NCBI RefSeq assembly: GCF_020177375.1
Contig: NZ_JAIWHV010000019.1
Location: 1-64,000 of the forward strand
Direction: 5' to 3'
DNA: 64,000 nt
From: Saliphagus infecundisoli
GTDB taxonomy: Archaea; Halobacteriota; Halobacteria; Halobacteriales; Natrialbaceae
This document shows, one piece after another, positions 21,579-41,840 of the stretch (positions are counted from its first letter, which is position 1; each line of letters starts with the position of its first letter). Position numbers and translations under genes: made by a program. Under the pieces are notes generated by a model, which searched no databases, was not told the DNA's origin, and saw only the letters and a program-made list of their open reading frames with translations.

Positions 21579-22661
21579 ATGAGTGATTCAACAACCGATG
21601 GAGAGAGCGTCACACGACCAGCCGACACGATGCGGGAGCGTGTCGGTGAGAGTCGGCTCAAGATTTGGTTTCTTATCACCGCAAATCGATGGTTAGTTAC
21701 GCTATTCTTTTCGGGGGTTGCATACGTAACGCTCCTCTTCCTCCTCGTATTCGGGCCGAGTTCGATTCGTCAACTCCTCACGACGAGCGCGGTGACCTCG
21801 CTGTTCTCATCGGTTATCATTGCGCTCATCACGAGTATCACTCTCGTGCTTTCGATTTCCCAGTTCGTACTTTCAGAGGAGATCGATACGCTCGGCAAAC
21901 AGCGGGAACAGATGCAAAACGAAACCGAATTCCGTGGAGATATAGAGGATACCGCGGGAATTGCGGTCAGTCCCTCAGAGCCATCACGATTTCTCCGAAC
22001 TCTCATTGAGACGGCAGATGAGCGTGCACGAGACCTTCGAGAGATCGTCGCTGATCAAGATGAGGACCAATTCCAGGAGATCACGAGCTTTGTCGATGGA
22101 CTCCTGGAACACAGTCAAACCGTAAGTGACGAGCTGGCAAGCGCTGATTTCGGTTCGTTTGATGTGCTCTTGCCTGTTCTCAACTACAACTATTCGTGGA
22201 AGATATTCGCTGCACGCAACCTCAGAGCAAAATATTCCGATTCTCTCTCGACGGAGGCTGACCAAGCTTTCGAGGAATTGATTGATACGTTGCGGTTTTT
22301 CGGTCCGGCACGCGAGCATTTCAAAACATTATATGTCCAATGGGAAATTATCAATATTTCTCGGGCGGTTCTCTATGGCGCAATGCCCGCGTTGGCGATC
22401 GCCGCGTACATGATGCTCGCTTTCGATGCTTCACAGTTGTTTGGGTCCTCGTTATTTGGGATTGATATTACCTATCTGTTCGTGAGTCTGATGTATGTAA
22501 TTACTCTCTTGCCATTTGCTGTAGTGCTCGCGTACGTTATTCGGGTGCTCACGGTCATTAAGCGAACGCTGGCGATCGGTCCGTTCGTACTCCGAGAAAC
22601 CAATCAGCTGGAGTCGGCACGCTACGACGAGTTGTCTGCCATCGAAGGCGAGAAAGAGTGA
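21579..22661 (+). CDS. Four-TM membrane protein, family A paralogue 1
   Basis: A 360-residue protein of a family I do not recognise, with two more members in this window. A charged N-terminus ends in TMRERVGESRLKIWF. Two helices follow (about 38-60 and 73-97, the second ending SISQFVLSEE). A cytoplasmic middle domain of about 165 residues has landmarks EPSRFLRTLIE, FGSFDVLLPVLNYNYSWKI and FGPAREHFKTLYVQWE. Two C-terminal helices end with RTLAIGPFVLRE. No channel or enzyme motif is seen. The HPP gene follows 83 bases downstream on the same strand, so they may form an operon. Confidence 0.75.
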   Translation: MSDSTTDGESVTRPADTMRERVGESRLKIWFLITANRWLVTLFFSGVAYVTLLFLLVFGPSSIRQLLTTSAVTSLFSSVIIALITSITLVLSISQFVLSEEIDTLGKQREQMQNETEFRGDIEDTAGIAVSPSEPSRFLRTLIETADERARDLREIVADQDEDQFQEITSFVDGLLEHSQTVSDELASADFGSFDVLLPVLNYNYSWKIFAARNLRAKYSDSLSTEADQAFEELIDTLRFFGPAREHFKTLYVQWEIINISRAVLYGAMPALAIAAYMMLAFDASQLFGSSLFGIDITYLFVSLMYVITLLPFAVVLAYVIRVLTVIKRTLAIGPFVLRETNQLESARYDELSAIEGEKE

Positions 22662-22744
22662 TCTTCTGATCCGAAATCGGATCTGAAACGCGAATTTACG
22701 ACCGGAATCGCCGTGGTTATCATCTTGATGGCGATAGACGAGCC

Positions 22745-23248
22745 ATGGACGAGACGGTCGGGACGACGCTGCACACGACCGTACTTGTGATGGTTGCGGC
22801 CCTCGCAGCCTGGCTCTCAGGTCTACCAACGCTGTTTCCGAGCCTCGGTCCTTCGGCGTTCGTACTGGCGATGTTTCCTCGGAGCGAGGCCAGCAATGCC
22901 CAGCGAGTGATCGGGGGGCATGCTATTGGTGTCGCCGCCGGGCTCCTTGCCTATTGGCTGTCCGGCGCGAACGGTTCGATGATCATCACCGCCGAACCGG
23001 GCTCGATCGCCGGCCTCCGACTTGCAGGAAGCGGAGTCATCGCGATTGCACTCACAGTCGGCGGAATGCTCACGACCGACCTACGCCATCCACCGGCCTG
23101 TGCGACGACATTGATCGTCGCGCTCGGTCTACTCTCGACGCCCCTAGAAGGTGCTCTGATCCTCGCCGCGGTCGTGGTCATGGTCGCTGCCCACCGCCTC
23201 CTACTGTGGACCGAGCGGATCGGTGGGGTCGGTCCTGGGACGTCATAG
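22745..23248 (+). CDS. HPP family membrane protein (candidate nitrite transporter)
   Basis: A 167-residue protein with four or five helices. The family's His-Pro-Pro motif is at RHPPACATTL (about residue 118), preceded by LFPSLGPSAFVLAMFPRSEASNAQRVIGGHAIGVAAG, another HPP landmark. HPP proteins of cyanobacteria and plastids have been reported to move nitrite across membranes; that this one does so is inference. Downstream of family A paralogue 1 and convergent with paralogue 2. Confidence 0.87.
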   Translation: MDETVGTTLHTTVLVMVAALAAWLSGLPTLFPSLGPSAFVLAMFPRSEASNAQRVIGGHAIGVAAGLLAYWLSGANGSMIITAEPGSIAGLRLAGSGVIAIALTVGGMLTTDLRHPPACATTLIVALGLLSTPLEGALILAAVVVMVAAHRLLLWTERIGGVGPGTS

Positions 23249-23330
23249 GGCGTGTATTCGGTGAACCGATGTGGTGAAAGGTCAGGCTCCGTTCTGAGAT
23301 TGTATCGAAACGGTCGGACAGTGGTCCATC

Positions 23331-24374
23331 TCAATCGCCGACGTCGCTTGTCTCAACGTCCTCCCGGGGAAGCTGTTCTTGCAGGACGAACGGGCCGAAG
23401 TCGGCGGCTGTCCGTCGAGCAATCGTCGCAATTCGGAGGACATAGAAGAGCAAGACGGCGAACGGGCTGAACAGTGCCGTCACCGTCGTGGCGACAATGA
23501 GAGCGTAGACAGCAGGATGGAGCCCCAAAGCCAGCAGATTGCCGTATGAGAGGATGATAAACGCCCCTCCAAGGAGCGTCGGGAAGCCGACGTATAACAG
23601 AATCTTGGAGAGGTCCGCGAGTTCTTGTTGCATGTAGACCGTCTTGAAGTACTGACGAGCAACGTGAATGTCTTCGAGCAGGTCTTCCAGTCGATCGAGC
23701 TGCCGCCGGGCGGGCTCAGAAAGTCGGTGACGGTGGCTCGAGCGGAGCTGGCGGACTTCCTGGAGTTGCCAGGGGTCGTTATAATGGAGGATCACCGAAA
23801 TGACGTCGAACGAGCCGAATGAGGTATCATTGAGGCGTTCGATCGCACGTCCATCACGGGAAGCCGTTGTCTCCACGTAGTCGGCAACATCATTGTGGAG
23901 CTCATCGGGAGCGTCCAGACAGACATTTCGCAGTCCAAGGACGGTCCGGCGCTTTGCCTCGATGAGCACACGTAGAAACTCCGAAGGTTCGACTGGACTC
24001 GGCCGATAGCCCGTATGGTCCTCGATTGTCCGACGGTACTCTCGGGAGGCCTCAAGACGATCGAAGAAGGTGCCAGTGGTACCAAACTCTTCAGAGAGGA
24101 TGAGCTGGTTAATCGCGAGCACAACAGTGATAAAGGGAAGCATGCCACCAATCAGTGCCCCTGAGAGGGTCGTAACATCGCCTGCTTCTGCGGGTGTGAT
24201 CAGCCCCTCATGAATCAAGAGGAGACAGACCATGAAGACGACGCCGAGCAAGAGAAGCGAGAGAACGCCTCGATTGCCGTGGAGGTAGAGCCACTGAACG
24301 ATGGCCTCGAAGCGACCTTTCTCCCCAACGGTGGGATCCGGTTGGGAGGCCGGAGCGTCGTCCGTTTCGTCCAT
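23331..24374 (-). CDS. Four-TM membrane protein, family A paralogue 2
   Basis: About 347 residues from the ATG at 24374; an upstream TTG is less likely. It has the same plan as the protein at 21579-22661: two N-terminal helices (the second ending AINQLILSEE), a cytoplasmic domain with VEPSEFLRVLIEAKRR, FGSFDVISVILHYNDPWQL and VARQYFKTVYMQQELADLSKILLY, then two helices and TIARRTAADFGPFVLQE. It is more diverged from paralogues 1 and 3 than they are from each other. Function unknown. Confidence 0.75.
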   Translation of the reverse strand: MDETDDAPASQPDPTVGEKGRFEAIVQWLYLHGNRGVLSLLLLGVVFMVCLLLIHEGLITPAEAGDVTTLSGALIGGMLPFITVVLAINQLILSEEFGTTGTFFDRLEASREYRRTIEDHTGYRPSPVEPSEFLRVLIEAKRRTVLGLRNVCLDAPDELHNDVADYVETTASRDGRAIERLNDTSFGSFDVISVILHYNDPWQLQEVRQLRSSHRHRLSEPARRQLDRLEDLLEDIHVARQYFKTVYMQQELADLSKILLYVGFPTLLGGAFIILSYGNLLALGLHPAVYALIVATTVTALFSPFAVLLFYVLRIATIARRTAADFGPFVLQEQLPREDVETSDVGD

Positions 24375-24565
24375 CACGGTCAACGTTTTGTTGCTCCCCT
24401 TGTAGTAGCTTCGTGACGCTCTACAGTTTCGGTCGCCACGAATGAGCTTGGATGCTCGCTTCTAGAATGTGATGAATCTTCACCCACTCCAGATACAATT
24501 CGAGAAATATTCTTTGAGACTAAATTACTATTGTCACGATCTGAATGTCGTGGTGAAACAGGTGG

Positions 24566-25876
24566 CTATTGCTCTTGAGGAGGTGGCGTTTGTTGGTAAT
24601 CAAGGAATCGGACCTGTACAGTAACCTCCCGAGACGTGTCTGCTGTGATTTGTTGTTGGAGAGTCTTGGATAGTTCGGGATGATCTGTATCCGAAGACCG
24701 TCCAACTACGACAGTGATTGAATCAGATTGGTGGTCGCCAAGGAGAGTTCCACCACCATAGGCGAGACGAGACTGCTCAAGTTTTAGCTCGGAATATTCC
24801 GATTCTGATAATACATCATCTACGTTCTGGTTCACAGTTTGAGTGAAAATGAAATATTGATACGTACTGATTAACACACCCACGAGAAGTAGCGCCACGA
24901 CAACAGCACCGACAGCCCCAGCAACCGTACGGAGATCAAACGAAACGATTTCACGGAAATTGTTAGAACTGGTTGATCGATACCCGATTCCCCAGAGAGC
25001 GATATACGCTGTAATATTGATGAGAATTACGTTAATGAGAAGGAGGACAAGCGCGCCAATCGCCAATAGTGGTTGGAGCCAGACGATTCCAAGCCCGACG
25101 GCGGCGGCAGCAGGAACAATTGCGGCTGCAACTGCGACGCCAGCGATCGAGACAGGAAGATCCGTCGCAAGCGCGAGAGCACCACCAGCACCAGCAAAGA
25201 TTGCAACCATCAGGGTGAGGACACCAGGTGCGGTAAAGCTCCCAACCTGTCCGATATTCTCAATGGCCAGCCTTGGCGGGACGAGAAAACCCCACCTGAA
25301 CACGAACGCCGCGGCGGTGGCCCCGATGATCGCGACGGTAAGCCCGAGCAGTTGGGATTTGAAACTATCAATGATTGATTCATAATCACCGATGATTCCC
25401 CCTACACTCGCAGACAGCGATGAACCGGCGAACGGAGAGATCACCATCGCACCGGTGATGACTATTGCAGAATTGAGTAGTAAACCGGCCGACGCAACAA
25501 TAGAACTAATCATCGCAAAAACAATGAACATTGATCGCTGAGGTGTCAGTTCTCGAGCTTTCGTCCGCAACTCTGCGTGTGAGAGGCCAACTTCGTCATC
25601 AGGGCCCTGAGTATACTGTCCTTCGAGTTCGTCAAGACTCGGTGTCGTTGCCGTTTCGATCTTACTTACAATCGTGAACGCATCATCTTCGAGGCCATCC
25701 CCTCGAAGTCTATCCAATATCTCATCAACTGCCCCATCAGGTATGGGAAAATGAACTATTGAGGAATCCTTACCGGCCGCCTCGTCAGCGATCACGTAAT
25801 CAGCGTTTGCCTCATCAAGCGTATCAAGAACACTCTCCTGAGACTCATTTGAAACCCGTATCTGAACAAGACGCAT
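24566..25876 (-). CDS. TIGR00341/DUF389 membrane protein
   Basis: A 436-residue protein. A cytoplasmic N-terminal domain (about 1-110, MRLVQIRVSNESQESVLDTLDEAN) is followed by six or so helices (about 118-330). The DUF389 hallmark lies in SAIVITGAMVISPFAGSSLSASVGGIIGD and again in GVAVAAAIVPAAAAVGLG. A soluble C-terminal tail of about 95 residues follows. The family is widespread and its function is unproven. It is the largest member of the 21-31 kb membrane-protein island. Confidence 0.85.
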   Translation of the reverse strand: MRLVQIRVSNESQESVLDTLDEANADYVIADEAAGKDSSIVHFPIPDGAVDEILDRLRGDGLEDDAFTIVSKIETATTPSLDELEGQYTQGPDDEVGLSHAELRTKARELTPQRSMFIVFAMISSIVASAGLLLNSAIVITGAMVISPFAGSSLSASVGGIIGDYESIIDSFKSQLLGLTVAIIGATAAAFVFRWGFLVPPRLAIENIGQVGSFTAPGVLTLMVAIFAGAGGALALATDLPVSIAGVAVAAAIVPAAAAVGLGIVWLQPLLAIGALVLLLINVILINITAYIALWGIGYRSTSSNNFREIVSFDLRTVAGAVGAVVVALLLVGVLISTYQYFIFTQTVNQNVDDVLSESEYSELKLEQSRLAYGGGTLLGDHQSDSITVVVGRSSDTDHPELSKTLQQQITADTSREVTVQVRFLDYQQTPPPQEQ

Positions 25877-26145
25877 GGTATATAACCTGGAAGGCGAGTA
25901 AAAACACTTTATAAGGCTATCGAGCGATAGATTTCAGATCGAACAGTTGGTTATGCTAATTCGATTTTCCAGTCTGATTGGGAGTTGCCGCATTCGGAAT
26001 ATAGTTACAACCTTAGTCTCATAGGGTGTAATTATCATCCTATAAAGGGTCTCGCACCTAGACGAAGATACATCCCATCGATCTGGAATGATTGCATTTA
26101 TTGACCGCATGATTTATTCCTATCGAGGCCGGATTTCTGTGCACT

Positions 26146-26274
26146 ATGGATCACACATCAAAATGTTCTTCGTGCTCGGCTTTTTTCAAATCAAAGCTCA
26201 AAAAGTGCCCTATTTGTGGAACTAAGAACTCAGATGCCCGGCGAGGACGAAAATACCCATCGCTGTTTGGATGA
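26146..26274 (+). CDS. Small zinc-ribbon protein
   Basis: A 42-residue basic protein with two CxxC knuckles (CSSC at residues 7-10 and CPIC at 22-25) about twelve residues apart, enough for one zinc ribbon, followed by a basic tail (RRGRKYPSLFG). It is not acidic like most haloarchaeal proteins, which suggests nucleic acid or protein binding. It lies alone between DUF389 and HPP2, upstream of and on the same strand as HPP2. Confidence 0.55.
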   Translation: MDHTSKCSSCSAFFKSKLKKCPICGTKNSDARRGRKYPSLFG

Positions 26275-26444
26275 TTTAACCTTCCTTAATATTTTCCTAG
26301 AAAGCCATTTACCGTCAGTAGTGAAGAAATCTTACTGCTAATTCGGGAAACAACTAAACCAGCCGTTTGCAATTTGAGATTGTCTAATCAGGTTCGCTCC
26401 CATCAAGCACAGTTACTATACGTATTCCTCACCGCTTTTGAACT

Positions 26445-26945
26445 ATGTCAGGGGGACGAGACTGGAGGATACTCCGTATATTAATCGAGTTTGTTGTCCT
26501 CATAGTAGTCGCGCTTCTATCTAACAATCCGCTTATTCTTCTTGCTCTCGCTATCTCCGGCTACGAACTCGCAACCAATCCGACTTCCCCTTCGAATACC
26601 ACACCAAACGTTCTTGGTGGCCATTTCATCGCACTTGTTACTGGTTTGTTGATTTACCATGCAATTGCACCTGGTCTCAGCGCTCTTGAACCACCATCTT
26701 CTATGTCGCTCACTGGACTCAGACTGCTTGCCAGCGGATCCGCAGCCATGTTGGCAACGATGGTTAGTATGCAGATGACAGAGCTCTACCATCCACCAGC
26801 ATATGCAACAGCCGTTGCCCTCGGTCTCGGCCTTCTTATCTCACCTATGGGGGTAGCCGCGATAGTCGTCGGGGCAATTGCTCTCATTCTCACAGAGGCG
26901 CTACTTACCCAAATAGGGATGAACGCAGCTGACCCAGCAAATTGA
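26445..26945 (+). CDS. HPP family membrane protein 2 (candidate nitrite transporter)
   Basis: A 166-residue HPP relative with four or five helices. The motif is YHPPAYATAVALGLGLL near residue 115; VLGGHFIALVTGLLIYHAI and TGLRLLASGSAAMLATMVSMQMTEL correspond to the landmarks of the first HPP protein in this window. The N-terminus is shorter in conserved features (ELATNPTSPSNTTPNVLGGH replaces the phosphate-like loop), so it is a diverged paralogue. Nitrite transport is a family-based suggestion only. Confidence 0.82.
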   Translation: MSGGRDWRILRILIEFVVLIVVALLSNNPLILLALAISGYELATNPTSPSNTTPNVLGGHFIALVTGLLIYHAIAPGLSALEPPSSMSLTGLRLLASGSAAMLATMVSMQMTELYHPPAYATAVALGLGLLISPMGVAAIVVGAIALILTEALLTQIGMNAADPAN

Positions 26946-27107
26946 CTAATCTCATTCATAAGACAACAGTGGTACCCCGCCAAAATTTCTGGACGAAAAA
27001 GATAATGAATAGTATTACTAATCAACATCCAGAGAAATCACCGAACAGTGAAGACGGCCGAACCGCCAAACGATTAGCCAGTTGGCTGACTCAACTCGTC
27101 CAACGAG

Positions 27108-27295
27108 CGACTCTAATCCGCCGGATTCATCCGATCGAGACCCGGCCCCGTTCCGACGGGGAGAAACTCGATCCAAGACGCCGTCGAGCGCTCCAGAAAT
27201 GGCGCACCAGCGGTGGGTACGATCGTTTGAGACCGGTCTCTCGGGCGAAATCTTCCAGCTGATCGTCGCCGTCCAGGAAGCTCAGTACTCACCCA
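27108..27295 (+). pseudogene. Decayed copy of the 5' end of the FNT-Usp gene
   Basis: This stretch is an eroded duplicate of the first 180 bases of the gene starting at 27914. In both, a CCGGA/CGACCC/CCGTTCCGACGGGGAGAA series occurs in order, followed by the equivalents of GACGCCGT, GAGCGxTCCAGAA, GGCGCACC and GATCGTCGC. Translation shows NPPDSSDRDPAP beside the intact DPPDPTDRDAAR, then EIFQLIVAV beside EIFQRIVAV, but in different frames, with indels between. The similarity stops at about 27295, before the first membrane helix. It cannot make a transporter. Confidence 0.75.
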
Positions 27296-27347
27296 AGCGA
27301 GGGCAGAATAGGCCCGATTGTGATAGGTCAGAGTAGTCCACGAACAA

Positions 27348-27746
27348 TCAGTGGACAATTGTTACTGGAACTGATGCTTTCCGGGCGACGTTTTCTGCGA
27401 CACTTCCAAGCAGCATTCGAGAGACGCCTGATCGTCCTGCGCTCCCGACTATGATCCCGTCGACAGACTCTTCGTCGGCAAATTCGATAATCGCCGATGC
27501 AGGCGTGCCATTGATTACACAGGTGTTAATATCAGTGTCGTACTTCGCAGCAATCTCAGTAACAGTCTCAAAAAAGTCTGGCTCCACATCACCGTCGGCG
27601 CCGCTACCACCGCCGTAGTGGGACTCGAGTTCATCGACAACGTGAATCGCTATCAGTTCTGCCTCGGGAAAAACCTCGAGAGCATGTTCCAGACTCGCAA
27701 TGGAGGGATCCGAGCCATCGAACGCGATGAGCATCCGTCGAGTCAT
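27348..27746 (-). CDS. Universal stress protein (UspA family)
   Basis: A 132-residue single-domain Usp with an intact nucleotide site: MLIAFDGSDPS at the N-terminus, VDGIIVGSAGRSGVSRMLLGSVAENVARKASVPVTIVH at the C-terminus (the G-x2-G-x9-G-S pattern). It therefore probably binds ATP. It lies between the decayed FNT copy and the FNT-Usp fusion, divergent from the latter, so it may work with that transporter. Confidence 0.9.
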   Translation of the reverse strand: MTRRMLIAFDGSDPSIASLEHALEVFPEAELIAIHVVDELESHYGGGSGADGDVEPDFFETVTEIAAKYDTDINTCVINGTPASAIIEFADEESVDGIIVGSAGRSGVSRMLLGSVAENVARKASVPVTIVH

Positions 27747-27913
27747 ATTCCAAAATTCACGTCCTGGGCGTTAAAACTTGGTTTCGAAACGGAATTAATG
27801 GGCCACAGAACCAGTACACCAAGATAAACATGGTTTATTAAAATTATTTAGATAAGCTGTAAAGGCAACCGAAACGACAAACGATTAGTCCATCCGGTAA
27901 CTCGACCCGCTCA

Positions 27914-29746
27914 ATGAGCGGTTCTGATCCGCCGGACCCGACTGACCGGGACGCGGCCCGTTCCGACGGGGAGAACTCGGTCCGGGACGCCGTTGAGCGG
28001 TCCAGAAGCGGCGCACCGGCGGTGGGGTCGGTCGTTCGGGATCGGTTCTCTTCCGACGAGATTTTCCAGCGGATCGTCGCTGTCGCCGACGAGGAGGTCA
28101 CTTCGGAGAGTCGTGAGCTGTTCTTCAGTGGGCTCGCTGCTGGCTTCGCCATTTCGATTACAGTCCTCCTGTACGCCTCATTGTATGGCGCAACTGATGG
28201 TCACCCGGTCCTGAGCGCCCTGCTCTACCCGCTTGGGTTCATTTACATCATCATTGGGGGGTACCAACTCTACACCGAAAACACGCTGCCGCCGGTCGCG
28301 TTGACCCTGGAGCGGCTCGCGAGCATTCCCGCGCTTCTCCGTCATTGGTCAATCGTACTTGTAGGTAACTTCACAGGCGGAGCCATCGGCGCGGCCGTGC
28401 TCGCGTGGGGTGGGGTCTTCTCCCCGGAAGGTGCAGAGGCGGCGCAATATCTTGGAACCCACGGCGCTGAGACGGCGTGGCTTGCCCTCTTCTTCAAAGC
28501 TGCCTTCGCGGGACTGATCGTTGCGGGCGTCGTCTGGATGGTCTACGCCTCCCAAGGAACTATTTCTCGGGTCGTCGTCGTCTACATGGCCTTTCTCGCG
28601 ATCCCGATCGGGAACCTGTTTCACGTGGTCACCTCGTTCACCGAGATGTCCTACGTAGTCTTCATCGGCGAACTCTCGCTATTCGTGGGGTTGACCGAGT
28701 TCGTCCTGCCGGTCCTCTTGGGAAACACGATCGGGGGAATCTTGTTGGTCACCATCGTCAACTACTACCAGACCACCGAACACCGCCTCGCGTCGGCTCG
28801 CTTCGAGGGAGTTGAGCGTCGGCTTTCCGTTCGAGAGTGGCTGTTCGGTGGCTTTGTTGGCCGGTCGTATGTCCCCCTGATCGACACCGGTGAACCCTCG
28901 GTCCCGGACGGCCGGTACCGGGTGTTGGTCCCGATCTCGAACCCCCGAACCGAGGCGGGACTGATCGAACTCGCTGCCGCCGTCGCCGCCCAGCACGGCC
29001 CCGCGGTCGTCCACGTCGCCCACGTCGTCCAAGTGCCCGACATCGAATACGGCACCGGCCAGCGCGACCGGATCGTCGCCGAGTCCGAACGACTCCTCAC
29101 CGATGTCGTTGGGCCAATCGAGGCTCACGAGGTCGACTTCGAGACCTCGACGGTCGTTTCCCACCGGTCTATTGAGGAAATCTTCGAGGCGGCCGACCGC
29201 GAGAACGCCGACCTCGTCGTGATGGGATGGGGCCGGGACGACCAACTCTGGGGCAGCCCCCGCGCCGAGGGCGTCGTCGAGGAACTCACCAGCCAGCTTC
29301 CCTGTGACTTCCTCGTGCTCGAGGGATCCGAACTCGACACCTCGCGGATCCTGCTGCCGACCGCCGGCGGCCCCGATTCGGAGCTGAGCGCCGAGGTCGC
29401 CCGGACGCTCCGATCTGCGGCGGGCTCGGAGGTCACGCTGCTGTACGTCGCCGACGAGGGCGAACGCGAGGCCGGCGAGACCTTCCTCGAGGGGTGGGCT
29501 GACGACCACGATCTCGCCGACGCCGAGATCGTCGTCGACGACTCCGGGGACGTCGAGCGCGCGATCGCCCGCGAGGCCGAATCCCACACGCTCGTCCTCC
29601 TGGGGGCGACCGAGCGGGGCTTTCTCGCGCGGCTCGTCTCGGAGTCGGTTCACCCGGCGGTCGTCAGCGGCGTCAACTGTTCGGTGTTGCTTGCCGAGCG
29701 GCCCGGGAATCGAAGCCTGTTCGCGCGGCTGTTCGGCCTAAAGTAG
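27914..29746 (+). CDS. Formate/nitrite transporter fused to two Usp domains
   Basis: A 610-residue fusion. Residues 45-295 are a formate/nitrite transporter (FNT) domain of six helices: YTENTLPPVAL at 120-130 and GNLFHVVTSFTEM (H237) correspond to the conserved loop and pore histidine of FocA/NirC channels. Residues 333-475 and 478-600 are two Usp-like domains (RVLVPISNPR...ADLVVMGWGRD, then RILLPTAGGP...TLVLLGATERG). FNT channels pass formate, nitrite or similar monovalent acids; the Usp pair would sit in the cytoplasm and could gate by nucleotide or stress. A free Usp is divergent upstream and family A paralogue 3 converges downstream. Confidence 0.88.
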   Translation: MSGSDPPDPTDRDAARSDGENSVRDAVERSRSGAPAVGSVVRDRFSSDEIFQRIVAVADEEVTSESRELFFSGLAAGFAISITVLLYASLYGATDGHPVLSALLYPLGFIYIIIGGYQLYTENTLPPVALTLERLASIPALLRHWSIVLVGNFTGGAIGAAVLAWGGVFSPEGAEAAQYLGTHGAETAWLALFFKAAFAGLIVAGVVWMVYASQGTISRVVVVYMAFLAIPIGNLFHVVTSFTEMSYVVFIGELSLFVGLTEFVLPVLLGNTIGGILLVTIVNYYQTTEHRLASARFEGVERRLSVREWLFGGFVGRSYVPLIDTGEPSVPDGRYRVLVPISNPRTEAGLIELAAAVAAQHGPAVVHVAHVVQVPDIEYGTGQRDRIVAESERLLTDVVGPIEAHEVDFETSTVVSHRSIEEIFEAADRENADLVVMGWGRDDQLWGSPRAEGVVEELTSQLPCDFLVLEGSELDTSRILLPTAGGPDSELSAEVARTLRSAAGSEVTLLYVADEGEREAGETFLEGWADDHDLADAEIVVDDSGDVERAIAREAESHTLVLLGATERGFLARLVSESVHPAVVSGVNCSVLLAERPGNRSLFARLFGLK

Positions 29747-29757
29747 CTTCTACCCGA

Positions 29758-30831
29758 TCATCGTTGTGAGTCTCGGAGGATGAGCGGACCGATGGCGAGC
29801 GTCCGCTTCGAGATGGTCGCCACCCGGGCGATATACGAAATGAGCAACAAGAACGGAAGCGACGTAAACGCGAACGCCGCCGCCGTGATCCAGATGAGGT
29901 TCGGCACGCCGAGGGTTACGCCGGGAAGCGACGATCCGCCGATGTACGTCGTCATGAAGCCGGCGACGATGAGCGCCGGGACCGACAGGTAGAGGATGTT
30001 CTGTGAAAGGCTGATGAGTTCCCACTCGAAGTACAGCGTCTTGATGTGCTCGCGGGCGGGACCGAACATCGACAGTGCCGTCTTCAGGTCGTCGAGGATC
30101 ACGCGCGTTTCCTCTGTGAGTGCGTCGCTATGCTCGTCAGTGAGACGTTCGACCTGGAAGATCTTCCAGCCGTAGTTGTAGTCGAGTGCCGCCGAGACGA
30201 CGGTGTAGGAGCCGAACTTTCGGCCCTCGAGTTTGTCCGCCGCGGCCTCCGCGTTACCAATGAGGCTGTTCGTGAACTCGTCGACCTCCCCCTGGAGGTC
30301 CTCATCATCGTTGTCGTGAACCGATTCACGGAGTTTCTCGGCGTATTCCTTGCTCTCCAAGATCAGCGCGCGGAGAAACGCCGACGGATCTGCGGGCGTC
30401 GGGCTCCCGAAAATCTCTTTCGTGAACTCCCGAAACTCCATCGTGCCGTTCATGCGGTCGCGCTGGTCGCCCAGCGGACCGTTCTCCTGGGAGATGACGA
30501 TCTGGCTGATGGTCAACACCAGCGTGACACCGGTGATGATGGCACTGATCATCGTCGAGAACACCGTCTCGACGGTGTCGGCCGTCTGTGCGTCCGTGAG
30601 GTAGTACTGGTAGAAGAAGGTTCCTCCCAGGACGAATACCCCGAAGATGAGCAGCGCGAGCAGGGCCGTAACGACGAGTCGGTTGCCGTCGAGGGTCAGC
30701 CAGACCTTGAGTTTGGTCTCGCCGGTTCGCTCGCGCATCGTGTTTGCCGTCCCGATATCGTCGACGCTGGATGCATCGAGATTCGGGTCCTCCTCGCTGC
30801 TATCAACGTTCTCGGTCGTATCGTGACTCAT
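29758..30831 (-). CDS. Four-TM membrane protein, family A paralogue 3
   Basis: A 357-residue relative of the proteins at 21579 and 23331. The N-terminus has NTMRERTGETKLKVWLTLDGNR, nearly the same as TMRERVGESRLKIWF of paralogue 1. The second helix ends TISQIVISQE. The middle domain has ADPSAFLRALILESK, FGSYTVVSAALDYNYGWKI and FGPAREHIKTLYFEWELISLS, and the end is TISKRTLAIGPLILRD. It converges on the FNT-Usp gene with 11 bases between stop codons. Function unknown. Confidence 0.75.
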   Translation of the reverse strand: MSHDTTENVDSSEEDPNLDASSVDDIGTANTMRERTGETKLKVWLTLDGNRLVVTALLALLIFGVFVLGGTFFYQYYLTDAQTADTVETVFSTMISAIITGVTLVLTISQIVISQENGPLGDQRDRMNGTMEFREFTKEIFGSPTPADPSAFLRALILESKEYAEKLRESVHDNDDEDLQGEVDEFTNSLIGNAEAAADKLEGRKFGSYTVVSAALDYNYGWKIFQVERLTDEHSDALTEETRVILDDLKTALSMFGPAREHIKTLYFEWELISLSQNILYLSVPALIVAGFMTTYIGGSSLPGVTLGVPNLIWITAAAFAFTSLPFLLLISYIARVATISKRTLAIGPLILRDSQR

Positions 30832-31049
30832 GGCTTCGATCTTATTGGATTACCATTCCAAATCTGTCTCGGTCTCGAGAAACGAGAGACCAATTTATTG
30901 TGGTTAGCACGCGTCATATCAGCGGTTCTGTAGAAATGGGGGACTCACTTGAGCTCTCCGTTCTGCCAGTACAAGTACCGGTCCTGGGACGTTACAAATT
31001 GAACTTCCATCCGTGGAATCATAAGGATGGCCCGCGGACGGACCGCTAC

Positions 31050-31439
31050 ATGGATACGACGTGGAACAGGTCAGTGGCGATTCTGGTAGTCGCCGCTCTA
31101 GTGATTATGGGCGGCTGTCTCACCGTGTCTCCAACCGTCGAAACCGACGACTCGGACACCTTCCGAAACGTCACGACGGACAGCCAGTGGGGAACATCGT
31201 CGGTCCAGGCGACCGTCACGTTCTCCTCCTCGGCGACGACGGCCGACGGCGTGAATCGAGTGAACGTCATCACGGAAAGCGGCGGCTCCTTCTACTCGAC
31301 GACTCTCGATGCCGGACAGACAACGGTTTCGCTGCCGCTGCCGACCGAAACACCTGCGACGTTGTACGCGGTCAACACCACCGGCGGGAGCGTCGTGGCC
31401 ACACAGAACGTGACCGTCGGCGGCTCGACGCTCCCGTAG
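31050..31439 (+). CDS. Small lipoprotein
   Basis: A 129-residue secreted lipoprotein. The ATG at 31050 gives a signal peptide ending in the lipobox IMGGC; earlier in-frame starts run through non-coding sequence. The mature part is Ser/Thr/Val-rich and beta-type (VQATVTFSSSATTADGVNRVNVITESGG, then TLDAGQTTVSLPLP), which suggests a small immunoglobulin-like domain on the cell surface. No specific family recognised. Confidence 0.7.
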   Translation: MDTTWNRSVAILVVAALVIMGGCLTVSPTVETDDSDTFRNVTTDSQWGTSSVQATVTFSSSATTADGVNRVNVITESGGSFYSTTLDAGQTTVSLPLPTETPATLYAVNTTGGSVVATQNVTVGGSTLP

Positions 31440-31557
31440 CCCTCCTGCTGCTCGAGGGAAGATCCGTACGACTCCCCCTCGAATTCTCCGAATGGGCGGC
31501 GCCGCCCGCGACCTCAACGTCGGGACCGACCACGTCGGTAACGACGCGCGCGTCCGA

Positions 31558-33199: not shown

Positions 33200-33417
33200 C
33201 ACTGACTCGATCCTTACTGGAAGAGCTATCCCCTGTACGTAACGATAGCTCGTTTGATCGGCTAACACACTTCTCATAACGTTACTGGGAGATATGTGAG
33301 TCAACTTTTGCTTACGATCCCTCCGGGATGACGGGGTCCCGGGGAAAATGGGTGATTGTCCGGAGGTCCCGACACGAAAAGTTGATAATTAGATATAAGA
33401 TACCGTTCGGGTACGCG

Positions 33418-35775
33418 ATGAGCTCCGCCGTCGACGAAGACACTCTCCGGGCGATCGACAGCGGCAGACAGACGATCGCTGAAGTGCTCTCGATCGCACA
33501 GACCCATCTCCAGAAGATCTTCATCGTCTTCGTCATCGGTTTCATCGGCTCCTTTTACGCCCTCCGGATCTACGTCTGGGACTTCCTCAAGGCGACGGCT
33601 GAAGCTGAAATGTCGGGTCAGCTCGCCGGACAGACCGACTTCATCACCCGGACGCCCACTGAGGTGATCCTGTTACAGGCCAAGATCGGGATGATCGTCG
33701 GCGCGATCGTCTCGATCCCCGCCATCCTCTACTTCGCGCGGAAGCCGATCAGGGAACGAGGTTACGAGTCGGCGATCCCGATCTCGCGGGCGTCGGTCGT
33801 CGGCTTCGTCGTGTCCGCCCTAGGCCTGTTCTGTCTCGGGATGGTCTACGCCTACGCCGTCTTCTTCCCCTTCGCCTTCGAGTTCCTCGCGGGCAACGCC
33901 GACAGCGCGGGCGTCAACCCCAACTTCGGGATCACCGAGTTCACCGAGTTCATGGCGTTGCTCACCATCTCGTTCGGGCTCGCCGCCCAGCTCCCCCTGT
34001 TCATGGGCGCGCTCGCCTACACAGAGATCGTCCCCTACGAGACCTTCCGGGACAAGTGGCGCCACTCGATCGTCGCCATCGCCGTCTTCGGCGCGCTGTT
34101 CTCGCCGCCCGACCCCTTCACGCTGATCATGTGGATGATCCCGCTGACCGCCCTCTACGCGTTCAGCCTCGGGTTCGCGAAGCTGCTGACCAACACCCGC
34201 AGGCGGGGCGCCGCCGAGGCGATCGGCGGCACCAGCCTGCTCCGAAAGCGGGCGCTCCAGGCCGGCGGAGTGCTGGGCGTGGTCTGGCTCGCCGTCGCTG
34301 GCTTCGTCGAATTCGGCGGCTTCGACGTCCTCGAGGACGAACTCTATCCCCTCCTCCCCGAACTGATCCGGCCGGGCGGGCCGACCGCCCTCGAGACCGT
34401 CGGCGCCGAGTACGGTACCGCGGGCGCGCTCCTTGCGGGCCTGCTCGTCGCCGCCGTCATCGGCTTCCTCGCGCTCTTCGTCTACACGATCAAGGTGCTC
34501 CAGGAGCCGGTCCACCCCCGGATCGACCAGATCCGGACCGGCCAGCCCGAGGAGATCGACATCGACGTCCTCGACGCCGACGCCATCGACGCCGTCCCGC
34601 CACAGGCGTTCCTCAAGATGGACGAGGAAGAGGCGATGGATCACGCCCGCCAGGCGATGTTCGACGAGGACAAGGAGAAAGCCCAGGCGATCCTCGATCG
34701 GTTCGACACCCTCCACGCCGAGGAGGGAGGACCGACCGCCGAAGGGGAGAGCGGTGCTACGGGCGCCGCCGCCGGCGCCTCCGCGGCCGCGGGCGACGCT
34801 GAGGGCGGCGAGGGTGCGCCGGCTCCCGAAGAGGAGGAGGGCAACGTCTTTTCGAGTACCGCCGCCGACATCCTGAACTCCTTTACCGAGGAGGAGACGA
34901 CCGAGGAGGACATCGGGGGGTACGCCTACGACATCGCGTTCATCTTCCAGAGTCTTACCTCGCGGATGTTCCGCATCGTCGGCCTGTTCATGGTCGTGAT
35001 GGGCGGGGTGTTCATGGGGCTTTACTCCGGCGGGCTCGGGATCATCCTCGAGACGTTCGTCTCGAACGTCCCCCGCGAGCTCCTGGTCTCGCTCGCGGAG
35101 CTCCAGGGGACCGACATCTCGCCGAGCGCCGACACCCAGACGCTGATCCAGGAGGGCGACTTCGTCATCGCCCTCCACCCCGTCGAGGTGCTGATCTTCG
35201 AGGTGAAGGTGAGCGTGATCGCGGGGATCATCGCCGTCCTCCCGCTGATCCTCTACTACGCCTGGCCGGCGCTGAAAGAGCGCGGGCTGGCCCGGGGCGA
35301 CCGCCGGGTGTTCATCGTCTGGGGCGCCAGCCTGATCGCCGGCTTCGCCGTCGGCACCTTCCTCGGGTTCTTCTGGATCGCGCCCTCGGCGATCTCCTAT
35401 CTGATCTCCGATTCGATCGACGCCGGGATGGTGATCTCCTACCGGATCAAACACTTCGTCTGGATGGTGATCTTCACCACCATCGGCATCGGCTTCTTGC
35501 TCAACATCGTCGTCACGATGGCCCTGTTTCACGTCGGCGGGCTCGTCCCCTACCGGACGATGCTCAAGGGCTGGCGGGTCGTCATCGTCGCGATCTTCAC
35601 CGCCGCGGCCTTCGCCAGCCCCTCGGGGATCCTGACGATGCTCCTACTCGCGTTCCCGATCGCCGCCACCTACCTCCTCGGGCTCGCCGTCCTCTACGTG
35701 CTCACCGCCGGCGGCCGGTTCTTCGGAGGCAAACGGAAGGGGCCGACGCTCGACACCGGCCTTCTGAACCGCTGA
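33418..35775 (+). CDS. tatC2: Tat translocase subunit, double TatC fusion (TatCt)
   Basis: About 785 residues from MSSAVDEDTLRAI; the longer frame adds 30 residues with a poor start. It contains two TatC domains joined in one chain: one at about 20-255 (FGLAAQLPLFMGALAYTEIV is the LP-loop region) and one at about 525-775 (MALFHVGGLVPYRTMLKGWR). Between them lies a helix pair plus an acidic Ala/Gly/Glu-rich cytoplasmic linker (about 410-520). This TatCt form is specific to haloarchaea, where most secreted proteins use Tat; substrates in this window include the subtilase, NirK and the halocyanin. The partner TatC and TatA are not in the window. Confidence 0.93.
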   Translation: MSSAVDEDTLRAIDSGRQTIAEVLSIAQTHLQKIFIVFVIGFIGSFYALRIYVWDFLKATAEAEMSGQLAGQTDFITRTPTEVILLQAKIGMIVGAIVSIPAILYFARKPIRERGYESAIPISRASVVGFVVSALGLFCLGMVYAYAVFFPFAFEFLAGNADSAGVNPNFGITEFTEFMALLTISFGLAAQLPLFMGALAYTEIVPYETFRDKWRHSIVAIAVFGALFSPPDPFTLIMWMIPLTALYAFSLGFAKLLTNTRRRGAAEAIGGTSLLRKRALQAGGVLGVVWLAVAGFVEFGGFDVLEDELYPLLPELIRPGGPTALETVGAEYGTAGALLAGLLVAAVIGFLALFVYTIKVLQEPVHPRIDQIRTGQPEEIDIDVLDADAIDAVPPQAFLKMDEEEAMDHARQAMFDEDKEKAQAILDRFDTLHAEEGGPTAEGESGATGAAAGASAAAGDAEGGEGAPAPEEEEGNVFSSTAADILNSFTEEETTEEDIGGYAYDIAFIFQSLTSRMFRIVGLFMVVMGGVFMGLYSGGLGIILETFVSNVPRELLVSLAELQGTDISPSADTQTLIQEGDFVIALHPVEVLIFEVKVSVIAGIIAVLPLILYYAWPALKERGLARGDRRVFIVWGASLIAGFAVGTFLGFFWIAPSAISYLISDSIDAGMVISYRIKHFVWMVIFTTIGIGFLLNIVVTMALFHVGGLVPYRTMLKGWRVVIVAIFTAAAFASPSGILTMLLLAFPIAATYLLGLAVLYVLTAGGRFFGGKRKGPTLDTGLLNR

Positions 35776-37389: not shown

Positions 37390-38145
37390 CTATTCCATCG
37401 GCGCCTCGGTATTGGCCTCGACCAACCGGATCAACACTGAGGCGAACAGCGAGCCCGCGCTCCAGATCGCGGTCTCGCCGCCGTCGTCGCCGACCACGCT
37501 CAACAGGACGCTGTCGTCGTCGACGATCACGATCCGCCCTGAGACCTCGTCGTCGGCGCGGTCGTCGGCCGGCGGGATCGTCGCGACGCCGTCGAACTCC
37601 TCGACCCGGTTGCGGACTGCCGACGACCGGCTGATCACCGTCACCTCGACTCCCTCGGCGGCCAGCTCCTCAAGGATCTCCCCGATCTCCCCGGTCAGCT
37701 GGTCGGTAGAGCGGATCCCGAAGACGATCCGCTCGTCGGCCCCCGAGACGATGTCGACGACCCGATCGTCGATCCGGTCGCTCCCTCGGACCGTCCAGAT
37801 GTCCTCTTGGCGCTCCTCAGTGTCGGACTCCTCGCGAACCCCTTCGACGTACTCGAAGGCGCGTTCCTGCTCGTTCTCGAAGCGAGTCCGGAGCGTCTCA
37901 CGGGCCTCCTCGACGCCGACCGGCCGGTACCGGATCGGGCTCGACTGCTGGACCTCAAGCAGTCCCCTCTCCTCTAAGCTCTCGGCGACGCTGTAGACCT
38001 GCGAGCGGGGGACATCGGCGACCCGGGCGACGTCGCGGGCGGTACCCGAGCCCAGACGCTGGAGCGCAATGAACACCTTCGCCTCGTAGCTCGTCAGCCC
38101 GAGGCGCTCGAACGCCCCGACCGCCTCGCTTTCCTCCGTGGCCAT
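37390..38145 (-). CDS. TrmB-family transcription regulator
   Basis: A 251-residue regulator. The N-terminal TrmB winged helix is LGLTSYEAKVFIALQRLGSGTARDVARVADVPRSQVYSVAESLEERGLLEV (about 14-65). A coiled linker follows (about 75-110), then a phospholipase-D-like C-terminal domain (about 115-245) with GADERIVFGIR and GVEVTVISRS. Its ATG shares one base with the stop of the RND transporter gene (TGATG), so it is the second gene of that operon and probably controls it. The sugar-binding domain of classical TrmB is not evident. Confidence 0.88.
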   Translation of the reverse strand: MATEESEAVGAFERLGLTSYEAKVFIALQRLGSGTARDVARVADVPRSQVYSVAESLEERGLLEVQQSSPIRYRPVGVEEARETLRTRFENEQERAFEYVEGVREESDTEERQEDIWTVRGSDRIDDRVVDIVSGADERIVFGIRSTDQLTGEIGEILEELAAEGVEVTVISRSSAVRNRVEEFDGVATIPPADDRADDEVSGRIVIVDDDSVLLSVVGDDGGETAIWSAGSLFASVLIRLVEANTEAPME

Positions 38146-41100
38146 CAGTCCTCACCCTCTGGTTCCCCGCCGTCGGCGGCCGCGGCGGTCGCTTCCGCGT
38201 CGGCGTCGAAGGCGACGTCCGGCCCGAAGTACCGCGTCCAGACCACCAGCAGGCTCGGAAGGACGATCACGCTCGCGAGGAAGGCGTACGTGATCGTCAG
38301 CGCGGTGATGATCCCGAACTGCTGGAGCGCGGGCAAGATTGCGAAGGCGAGCACGCCGAAGCCGCCGACGGTCGTCGCCGCGCTGCCCAGCAGGGCGCCG
38401 CCCGTCCCGGTCACGGTCGTCCGCATCGCCGACCAGACGTTGCCCGTGCGCTCGAGCTCGAGGGTGTAGCGGGCGCTGACGTGGATGCTGTAGGCGACCC
38501 CGAGCCCGACCGTGAGGCTCGTGATCATCCCCGTCAGGACGTTGAACGGCATCCCGATGAGGTACATCGTGCCGAGGATCCAGCTCACCGAAAAGGCGAC
38601 CGGGAGCAAGGTGATGGCTCCCAGCGTCGCCCCGTTGCCCGTCAGCCAGTAGGCAACCGTGAGGAAGACGAACACCGCCACGAGCGTGATCGCCAGGCTC
38701 TCCAGCACCGTATTGAGGAGATCCTGTTCGACCAGGTGGCTGACGATCGGGTTGCCGGTCGCGATGACCTCCCACTCGCCGTCGATGCCGTCGGCGATCG
38801 CTCTGGTCTCGCTCGTCACCTCGTCGAAGCCGGCGTCGCCCTGGACGCCGACGATCATCCGGACGGCCTCGTACTCGCCGTCGTCGGTCCGGTAGACGAC
38901 GTTGCTCGCGGCCGTCTCGTCGACCTCGAACAGCTGGTCGTACAGCGACTCGACGTTCTCGTCGGGGACGCCGTCGCCGTCGGTGTCCGCGGCGCTAAAG
39001 GACTCGTTGAACGACTCGTTCTCGCTCGCAGCCGTCTCCATTACGGAGAGGGGACTCTGGACGTCAGCCTCGCCGGTCGGTCCGACGTAGGCGACGTCAC
39101 TGTCGGCGGCGTCCGCCGTCGCTTGATCGATCTCCGCTAACGTCCCGTCGTCGGTCACCGGCCCGCGTATCAGGATCTGGCTCTGTGAGTCCTCTCGCTG
39201 GAAGTTCTCGTTGACGAACTCGAGGTCGTCTTTGGCCTCGTACTCCGCGGGCGCGAGCGGGCCGAGGTTCTCGGTCCACTCGGGCGGGCTCTCGGCGAGG
39301 AAGTCCTCCTGCTGGAAGCTGGTGTCGACCTGGGTCGCGCCGTAGACCCCGCCGGCCGACAGCAGGAGGGTGACGACGATGACGGCAAGCGGCGCCTTCC
39401 GTGCGGCGGTCGCGCCGACGGTCAACACCCGGCCGAAGGCGCCGCCGCCGGTCCCGAACGCACGCTTGCGCCGGTCGAAGCCGCGGGACTCGAGCAGGGC
39501 GTCGATCTCGACTTTCGCGGCCGGGATCAGGGCGCCAAAGACGATCAGTGCTGCGAGGATCCCGAACGCGCTGACGATGCCGAATTCTTGGATCGGGCCG
39601 ATCGGGCTAACGAGGTTCGAGAGGAAGCCGATGACCGTCGTTGCGGTCACCCAGATTAGGGCAACGCCGACGCCCCCGAGGGCGATTTTCATCGAGCCAC
39701 GGACGCCGCTCTCGTCCTCGACGCCCTCCTCGCGCTGTTCGCGGTGGCGCATGAAGACGTGGATCGCGTAGTCGATCGAGAGCCCGATCAGGAGCACGGG
39801 GACGGCGATCATCATCTGGTTGAACGAGATCCCGGCCCAGCCCATGAAGCCGAACGTCCAGGCCAACACCGCGAGGATCCCAAGCACTCCGAGGACGATG
39901 TCGACGGGGTCCCGGTAGGCGACCGCGAGCGCGCCGACGACGAACAGCAGGGCCAGCGGACCGACGATTGCCAAGCTGTCGCCCATCGAGTTGTTGATCT
40001 CCTCGGTGATGATCCCGGCGCCGAAGACGGCGTACTCGTTGCCCTCCTGGCCGTCCGCGAGCTCGCGCATCTCGAGTTGGGCGTCCATCGCATCGCTCTC
40101 GCCGCCACCCATCCCGCCCTGGGCTCCGCTCGTCTCGCTCACCTGGGTAACGAAGATCATCCGGGCGTCCGCCGAGGTGGTGCCAGGGTCGTAGTCGGTC
40201 GGCATCAAGTTGAGCGCTGGGCTCCCACCCTCGCTCTCCGAAAGGACCGTTGTGAGGTTCTCCTCGAACTCCGACTCGGAGAGGCCCTCGATTGCCTCGA
40301 TCTGCTCGTCAAGCGTCGGCGTCCCACCCTCCTGGAGGGCTTCCCGTTCGTCTTGGAGCTCCTGGCCGCGCTCCTCGAGTTCGGCGCTTTCGTTTTCAAG
40401 CGCCGCTTGCTCATCCTGCAACTCCTGACCGCGTTCCTCGAGTGCAGCGCTTTCGTTTTCGAGCGCCGCCCGTTCGTCTTGGAGCTCCTGACCGCGTTCC
40501 TCGAGGTCGGCGCTATCGTTTTCGAGTGCGGCCTGTTCGTCCTGGAGAGCCTGGCCGCGCTCTTCGAGCTCCTGGCCGCGCTCCTCGAGCTCCTGGCCGC
40601 GCTCCTCGAGAGCGGCGAGTTCGTCAGCGAGGACGCCGACGGTCCCCGCCTCGTAGGCACTCGCGAGGTCGTTTTCGACGGCGACGAGGTCGGATGTCGT
40701 CGTCCGGACCTCCGTCGCGCTCACGACGAACGTCGCGCTCTGGGCCGGACCGAGGTCCGCGGTTGCGTTCGTCCAGACCTCGGCGATTTGGGTCTCTAAC
40801 GTGGCTCGTTGGTCCTCATCGTCGGTCGCCTCGATCTCGCGCTGGAGCTGGGCGGTCTCGTTCAGTGCCGCCTCGAGTTCGGCCTGCGTCTCGGGGTCGT
40901 CGGTGACGCCGGTTCCGGTCGCGTAGGCGCCCGCGAGAGCGGTCTCGTTTTCGACTCGGTCGCTTGTCAGGGACCGGACGTCGCCCGCGGCGGCCTCGAA
41001 TCGCTCGGCCTGCTCGGGCTCCAAGTCGGCGGTCGTCTCTGCCCACAACTGCGCAATCTCGTCCTCGATTGCCGCCCGCTCCCCGTCGCTTTCGGCCTGC

Positions 41101-41840
41101 TCGTAGGCGGCCTGGAGTCGGGCGGTCTCGTTCAGCGCCGCCTCCTGGGCGGCGAGTTGGGCCTCGATACGCTCGCGCTCTTCCTGGAGCGCCTGGCTGT
41201 CGTTTTCGAGGGCAGCCCGGTCTTCCTCGAGTTGTTGGCCACGTTCTTCGAGTTCCTGGCCGCGCTCTTCGAGTGCGGCCGTGTCGTTTTCGAGTTGTTG
41301 GCCACGTTCTTCAAGTTCCTGGCCGCGCTCTTCGAGTGCGGCCGTATCGTTTTCGAGTCGTTGACCGCGCTCGGCGAGGTCCTGGCCCCGTTCCTCAAGT
41401 GCGGCACTGTCGTTCTCGAGCTCTTGAGCACGTTCGGCGAGTTCCTGGCCGGCTTCGGTTTGGATGGCCGCGATGCCGAGGGCGTTTCCGACGCCGAAGG
41501 TCGACTGGTCCTCCGCGAGGGTTGCATTGATCGACTCGTTGTTTCGGAGCGTCTGCTGAAGGGCGAGCGAGTCGAGCAGTGACTCCTTGGTGAGGACGTT
41601 TTCGCCCTTGACTATCAGCTGCACCGTCGTCGTGTTTTCCTGGTCGTCGGCCGTGAAGTTCTCGTTGGCATACTCGACGGCCTGTGCTTCCGCCGAGTCA
41701 GTTTCGAACTGGCTAAGCGAGGACTCATCGTCGATCATCGGTGCGCCCGCACCGATCAGGACAGTCGCCACCAACAGAACGGCCAGCACTGCCTTACTGT
41801 GGCTCGTCACGACGCTTGCGATTCGTTCGGGCGTGCTCAT
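38145..41840 (-). CDS. RND/MMPL-type transporter with giant coiled-coil insert
   Basis: A 1231-residue membrane transporter. TM1 is AVLAVLLVATVLIGAGAPM (about 14-32). The first extracytoplasmic part, about residues 35-590, holds a very long coiled coil built of heptads such as ALEERGQ-ELEERGQ-QLENDTA, in two blocks around a less regular middle. Helices resume at SLAIVGPLALLFVVGALAVAY, with GLSIDYAIHVFMRHR the RND TM4-like signature; a second half repeats the plan (GLGVAYSIHVSARYTLE). It likely exports lipids, drugs or other hydrophobic compounds using the ion gradient. The coiled coil may reach into the S-layer space. The TrmB regulator overlaps its end. Confidence 0.9.
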   Translation of the reverse strand: MSTPERIASVVTSHSKAVLAVLLVATVLIGAGAPMIDDESSLSQFETDSAEAQAVEYANENFTADDQENTTTVQLIVKGENVLTKESLLDSLALQQTLRNNESINATLAEDQSTFGVGNALGIAAIQTEAGQELAERAQELENDSAALEERGQDLAERGQRLENDTAALEERGQELEERGQQLENDTAALEERGQELEERGQQLEEDRAALENDSQALQEERERIEAQLAAQEAALNETARLQAAYEQAESDGERAAIEDEIAQLWAETTADLEPEQAERFEAAAGDVRSLTSDRVENETALAGAYATGTGVTDDPETQAELEAALNETAQLQREIEATDDEDQRATLETQIAEVWTNATADLGPAQSATFVVSATEVRTTTSDLVAVENDLASAYEAGTVGVLADELAALEERGQELEERGQELEERGQALQDEQAALENDSADLEERGQELQDERAALENESAALEERGQELQDEQAALENESAELEERGQELQDEREALQEGGTPTLDEQIEAIEGLSESEFEENLTTVLSESEGGSPALNLMPTDYDPGTTSADARMIFVTQVSETSGAQGGMGGGESDAMDAQLEMRELADGQEGNEYAVFGAGIITEEINNSMGDSLAIVGPLALLFVVGALAVAYRDPVDIVLGVLGILAVLAWTFGFMGWAGISFNQMMIAVPVLLIGLSIDYAIHVFMRHREQREEGVEDESGVRGSMKIALGGVGVALIWVTATTVIGFLSNLVSPIGPIQEFGIVSAFGILAALIVFGALIPAAKVEIDALLESRGFDRRKRAFGTGGGAFGRVLTVGATAARKAPLAVIVVTLLLSAGGVYGATQVDTSFQQEDFLAESPPEWTENLGPLAPAEYEAKDDLEFVNENFQREDSQSQILIRGPVTDDGTLAEIDQATADAADSDVAYVGPTGEADVQSPLSVMETAASENESFNESFSAADTDGDGVPDENVESLYDQLFEVDETAASNVVYRTDDGEYEAVRMIVGVQGDAGFDEVTSETRAIADGIDGEWEVIATGNPIVSHLVEQDLLNTVLESLAITLVAVFVFLTVAYWLTGNGATLGAITLLPVAFSVSWILGTMYLIGMPFNVLTGMITSLTVGLGVAYSIHVSARYTLELERTGNVWSAMRTTVTGTGGALLGSAATTVGGFGVLAFAILPALQQFGIITALTITYAFLASVIVLPSLLVVWTRYFGPDVAFDADAEATAAAADGGEPEGED
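40342..40622 (-). repeat. Heptad-coding DNA repeat block 2 in the RND gene
   Basis: About 280 bases of tandem, slightly diverged 21-base units coding for heptads such as ERGQELQ-DEQAALE-NESAELE. The plus strand shows recurring TCCTGGCCGCG and TCGTTTTCGAG. Such arrays can expand or shrink by slippage or recombination, so the coiled-coil length may vary between strains. Confidence 0.8.
41224..41421 (-). repeat. 63-bp tandem repeat block 1 in the RND gene
   Basis: Three near-identical 63-base units, each encoding ALEERGQ, (E/D)LxERGQ and xLENDTA heptads. The plus strand repeats TTGTTGGCCACGTTCTTC and CTGGCCGCGCTCTTCGAGTG almost without change. The closeness of the copies suggests recent duplication within the gene. 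Confidence 0.8.

Follow-up and report, generated by a model that had tools for sequence, protein, structure and literature searches.

A widespread haloarchaeal membrane-protein family with a bestrophin-like predicted plan and branch-specific partner genes

The described proteins closest in plan to the family reported here are the bestrophins (PF01062), pentameric chloride channels with a central pore that include KpBest, E. coli YneE, VCCN1 and BEST1. They are built in the order TM1, TM2, cytosolic helices, TM3 and TM4, and the bestrophin-like proteins of PF14023 (DUF4239) follow the same helix order by eye, with a cytosolic part shorter than in the present family. The bestrophin order, at similar length, recurred in structural models of proteins encoded in a stretch of 64,000 nucleotides from the archaeon Saliphagus infecundisoli, referred to below as the window. 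These proteins belong to an undescribed membrane-protein family, confined almost entirely to Halobacteria, that is present in about 94% of the haloarchaeal genomes sampled and in eight copies in this genome, yet is labelled only "hypothetical protein", as in the NCBI records of its plasmid-borne relatives.

Three paralogues in the window and the spread of the family

The earlier note on this DNA had described three paralogues of an unrecognised four-TM family. All three open reading frames were present, at 21579-22661 (+ strand; member A, 360 aa), 23331-24374 (- strand; member B, 347 aa, for which the ATG at 24374 is a fitting start) and 29758-30831 (- strand; member C, 357 aa). When the source genome (4.53 Mb, 76 contigs) was searched with the 21579 protein, the 29758 protein was matched with E 1.4e-73 at 39% identity and the 23331 protein with E 1.1e-50 at 32% identity; by sequence comparison the three are thus homologous, far above chance. 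They proved to be three of eight copies in the genome, the other five lying on contigs C22, C44, C11 (two copies) and C76, and all eight could be aligned from end to end, 18 columns being invariant. The sequence blocks that had been listed as shared were found in the alignment, but three of them are only loosely kept in the 23331 protein, in which FGPAREH reads HVARQYF, YNYxWK reads YNDPWQ and RTLAIGP reads RTAADFGP.

The three genes are interspersed with genes for membrane and stress proteins. An HPP-family permease gene (TM_HPP, PF04982, E 9e-13; 22745..23248, + strand) follows member A on the same strand at a distance of 83 bp. Member B is convergent with this HPP gene and follows, 191 bp downstream and on the same strand, a gene for a DUF389/TIGR00341 membrane protein (24566..25876, - strand). 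A second TM_HPP protein (PF04982, E 3e-8) is encoded at 26445..26945 (+ strand) and a universal stress protein (PF00582) at 27348..27746 (- strand). Convergent with member C is a formate/nitrite transporter (FNT) gene (PF01226; 27914..29746, + strand), whose single protein joins the transporter to two C-terminal universal-stress domains. Divergent from member C is a small predicted lipoprotein gene (lipobox VIMGGC; 31050..31439, + strand). The last two-gene unit occurs twice in the genome: positions 29753-31472, comprising the family gene and the divergent lipoprotein gene and ending near gene boundaries, are duplicated on contig C44 (L010 5394-7106) as a 1.7-kb block with 87% DNA identity, and the C44 twin of the 29758 protein is 94% identical. 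The two blocks are recent copies of a two-gene cassette.

Of 391 Halobacteria genomes sampled, 368 contained a family match; only about five candidates were scored per genome, so that the copy numbers from this sample are lower bounds. When 295 genomes from the whole phylum were sampled, 45 contained a match and 44 of these were Halobacteria. The one exception, G408 (L212 8537-9586), carries its copy in DNA of 37% GC among transposase-like genes, and in the tree this copy is placed next to one from Halosimplex; we read this as a probable case of horizontal transfer, with another salt-living archaeon as recipient. When 84,980 species genomes were scanned, the best 80 loci were all haloarchaeal except for one "Euryarchaeota archaeon" MAG. 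The query of this multi-genome scan was biased toward branch C (see below), so that branch proportions do not represent natural frequencies. A viral origin was discarded, as family matches were absent from viral contigs and phage records and the viral structure library likewise gave no match.

The family was indeed unrecognised, as had been claimed: Pfam, NCBIfam, PHROGs, PADLOC and PDB sequences yielded no credible family match for its members, and a Pfam search of 69 members gave no family hit above cut-off. A PADLOC match of the 21579 protein to 1TM-TIR (E 4e-5, residues 299-333) was treated as spurious because it is confined to a single TM helix.

A tree of 184 sequences resolved at least seven subfamilies, and the three window copies fall into three different ones: 21579 into A (6 members), 23331 into B1 (21) and 29758 into C, the largest (83). 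B2 (28 members) and D (15), a sister of B1, are further branches, and the branches T16 and T7 supply tandem neighbours to B2, arranged consistently as B2-T16-T7. Of 145 loci, 24 contain more than one paralogue, and each of the six sampled A members has another paralogue within 1.5 kb; the trio in the window is therefore one instance of a habit. The fixed tandem of different paralogues suggests hetero-oligomers.

Predicted fold and comparison with known families

Two AlphaFold2 models were obtained, one of the 29758 protein with 69 relatives (pLDDT 86.7, pTM 0.79) and one of the 23331 protein with 44 alignment rows (pLDDT 84.6, pTM 0.77). In both, TM1 and TM2 are followed by five cytosolic helices, then by a helix of about 56 residues that leaves the bundle and continues into TM3, and finally by TM4. 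In the 29758 model the helices span 50-71 and 84-115, the cytosolic bundle 119-232, the long helix 239-295 and the last helix 310-346 (model numbering, equal to protein residue minus 1). The plan proposed in the earlier note, two helices, a cytoplasmic domain and two helices, was thus reproduced by two independent models; four TM helices with a helical cytosolic part between TM2 and TM3 is the bestrophin plan. The charge distribution supports a location of both protein ends inside the cell: K+R averages 4.7 at the N-terminus and 2.8 at the C-terminus, but 0.9 in one outer loop and 0.2 in the other. Across the family R51, P326 and R336 are invariant, and TM2 bears conserved polar residues at intervals of 3-4 positions (T100, T103, T107, Q110 and S114, with E116 at its end; protein numbering). 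As a helical moment this polar stripe was not significant (P 0.14), and a pore-lining TM2 face was consequently dropped as a statistical argument.

Foldseek searches gave no significant match for either model, the best E values being 0.15 and 0.10, and placed unrelated helical proteins equally high. Bestrophin chains were found in the top 50 of both searches (6ivm, 6ivq, 6ivn, 6iv0 and human BEST1 8d1i for the 29758 model; 7ek1, 7ek2, 7ek3 and 6jlf for the 23331 model), spanning nearly the full length with a best bestrophin E of 0.28. With VIA-align the 29758 model matched KpBest (6iv1_C) with Z 7.1 and 196 residues aligned over model positions 49-345, a score below the helical-protein noise level of about 13, and bestrophins were absent from the VIA top 50 for the 23331 model. 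The top of the VIA lists was taken by TTYH1-3 (Z 12-13), which we rejected as relatives: good fits (rmsd 2.5-2.8 Å) were restricted to the helical bundle, and full-span fits had an rmsd of 10-16 Å. The helical bundle of TTYH proteins is extracellular, and we judged the likeness to be one of common bundle arrangement.

Profile comparisons were made with hhalign in local mode against reference alignments of 12 bestrophins, 9 DUF2254 proteins and 4 DUF4239-like proteins. The family scored P 0.068 against bestrophins (reversed control 0.29), compared with P 3.7e-4 for the positive control of bestrophins against DUF4239-like proteins; neither this comparison nor the Pfam search of the 69 members thus gave a bestrophin profile match. 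PF14023 (DUF4239) likewise gave no profile match (P 0.24 versus 0.10 for the reversed control, with four reference sequences only); its sub-threshold members were found in methanogens of the same phylum. A search of 247 genomes with PF01062 returned no signal anywhere and is uninformative on presence or absence. The bestrophin TM2 motif GFRNN (FLGFRNNAGY in YneE) is absent from the family, whose TM2 ends in TxVTINQLVLSQE. A conserved Arg-rich stretch before TM3, AREHFKT in the family, is aligned with the bestrophin CERIKxTP in the profile alignment. MotA/ExbB/TolQ had no Pfam match in the 69 members and were absent among the listed fold matches. The plan is thus bestrophin-like, and the comparisons demonstrate homology neither to bestrophins nor to DUF2254.

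Partner genes differ between branches

Branches were named by their neighbours, which were counted at loci chosen only by family similarity, with heuristic gene calls outside the family hits. In branch C, 76 of 83 members are immediately preceded, on the same strand, by a DUF4177-like gene, versus 0 of 101 in all other branches. The partner matches Pfam DUF4177 just below cut-off (E 2.5e-5) and is named "DUF4177 domain-containing protein" by NCBI. In 61 of the 76 pairs its stop codon and a possible start of the family gene overlap by 4 or 8 nt; fusions of the two genes were not found in branch C. The 29758 copy and its C44 twin are among the seven branch C members without an upstream DUF4177 gene, and both have the small lipoprotein instead, relatives of which adjoin 23 of 83 branch C members.

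Branch D shows a different arrangement, DUF389 lying directly upstream on the same strand in 14 of 15 members from five haloarchaeal families, and a YCF48-type propeller lipoprotein accompanying 14 of 15. The order DUF389-then-member is the same as that of the B1 subfamily member at 23331. Two further uncharacterised genes also recur in branch D, one (L170 6659-7225 and relatives) two genes upstream of DUF389 on the same strand and one (L169 6085-6576 and relatives) three genes upstream on the opposite strand, each in 10 of 15 loci. Branch B2 in turn is accompanied by a Tat lipoprotein (25/28), PspA (22/28) and HPP (15/28), PspA within 3 kb being found beside none of the 83 C members. Fisher values for these associations, as low as 4.7e-44, count related rows as independent observations and so exaggerate significance; safer ground is offered by the differences among the branches and by the range of families covered. 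These fixed partners provide concrete pairings for three uncharacterised families, namely the present membrane family, DUF4177 and DUF389, and link the family to PspA.

Possible roles as channel, stress scaffold or transporter partner

The membrane body and the branch-specific, sometimes translationally coupled partners fit a regulated channel or a membrane-stress scaffold, and an unrecognised channel or membrane-stress module is the most likely candidate reading of the family. Our main reading, to which we assign a probability of roughly 0.35, is that of an oligomeric channel of bestrophin-like build that would be connected with membrane stress. Each protein would span the membrane with its two termini in the cytosol, two TM helices being followed by a cytosolic helix bundle and two further TM helices. 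Several copies, of one paralogue or of different ones, would join into an oligomer that conducts ions and is built as in bestrophins, with TM2 lining the pore and the cytosolic bundle forming the gate. The gate would be set by the partner of each branch: in the largest by the DUF4177 protein, translated from a shared, coupled message, in another by DUF389, and in a third by PspA, HPP or lipoprotein neighbours. Judging from these neighbours, the occasion would be membrane, osmotic or anion stress. In favour of this reading are the agreement of the two models, the helix order, the recurring bestrophin chains, the conserved TM2 residues, the coupled or ordered partner genes, the rise of haloarchaeal PspA at high salt (PMC3235422) and a statement in PMC4137279, citing Maeda 2014, on an HPP protein as a nitrite transporter candidate for which nitrite uptake was measured; against it are the fold and profile scores short of significance and the absence of GFRNN. 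If the family is a channel, it offers a candidate answer to the question of which non-selective or anion channels haloarchaea use upon salt shifts. In its boldest form, which we regard as doubtful, the proposal would be that of a class-wide haloarchaeal channel family with a bestrophin-like structure beyond sequence recognition, interchangeable regulators and oligomers of mixed tandem paralogues for salt and membrane stress.

About equally likely is that the proteins do not conduct at all, and that the cytosolic bundle instead docks DUF4177, PspA or DUF389, the membrane protein serving as an anchor or sensor that reports membrane or salt stress. The proximity of PspA in B2 and its absence in C would suit such a scaffold, as would the constancy of exported lipoproteins in B2, D and part of C and the coupling of a small soluble DUF4177 gene to branch C. 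PspA of Haloferax volcanii is up at high salt (PMC3235422), archaeal Psp networks have been described as largely unknown (PMC9239133), and yjzH, a DUF4177 gene of B. subtilis, is listed under sigma-W (PMC12456014). The cytosolic bundle, moreover, resembles generic four-helix docking bundles including those of the sensor domains McpZ and PilJ. However, a known docking or signalling domain was not found in the members, and the conserved TM2 positions together with E116 and R336, located in or at the ends of TM helices, exceed the needs of a pure anchor.

The transport genes in the window had prompted the suggestion of a partner or sensor for transporters. As an accessory subunit, the protein would gate or assemble a neighbouring anion permease (HPP, FNT or DUF389). 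HPP genes recur beside subfamilies A, B1, B2 and T at other loci and lie within 3 kb of 6 of 21 B1 and 3 of 6 A members in addition to the B2 loci given above. Together with the DUF389 genes of branch D, this part of the suggestion held up, HPP being a neighbour in two to three subfamilies. It failed for branch C, where HPP was found within 3 kb in 1 of 83 members (the window itself) and DUF389 in 2 of 83, and for FNT, which adjoins a family member at only two of 145 loci, the window (29758) and L111, so that an FNT partnership was rejected. Most family copies have no transporter gene nearby, and elsewhere the transport association is replaced by the non-transport partners DUF4177, PspA and lipoproteins. 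We therefore consider a transporter partner unlikely, and conceivable for branches B and D only.

Least probable is that the family is distantly related to DUF2254 (PF10011) or to some other bacterial family of membrane proteins, likewise undescribed, and has a function unlike those considered above: DUF2254 reached 8 of 69 members below threshold (best E 0.0051; curated cut-off of 28.8 bits unmet), its profile touching their first helices (E 0.04-0.8) with TM2 segments alike by eye, but hhalign gave P 0.025 versus 0.04 for the reversed control (probability 2%), and the fetched DUF2254 sequences have more hydrophobic segments directly after TM2 and no cytosolic bundle.

With respect to the genomic setting, the GC content of the window is 56%, versus 66-68% at the genome's other loci, which suggests a plasmid or acquired region. 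Further along, the window encodes a double TatC-like protein with two TatC stretches in 815 aa (33328-35775) and a 1,231-aa MMPL/Patched-type transporter (38145-41840) adjoining a TrmB-like regulator (37390-38145).
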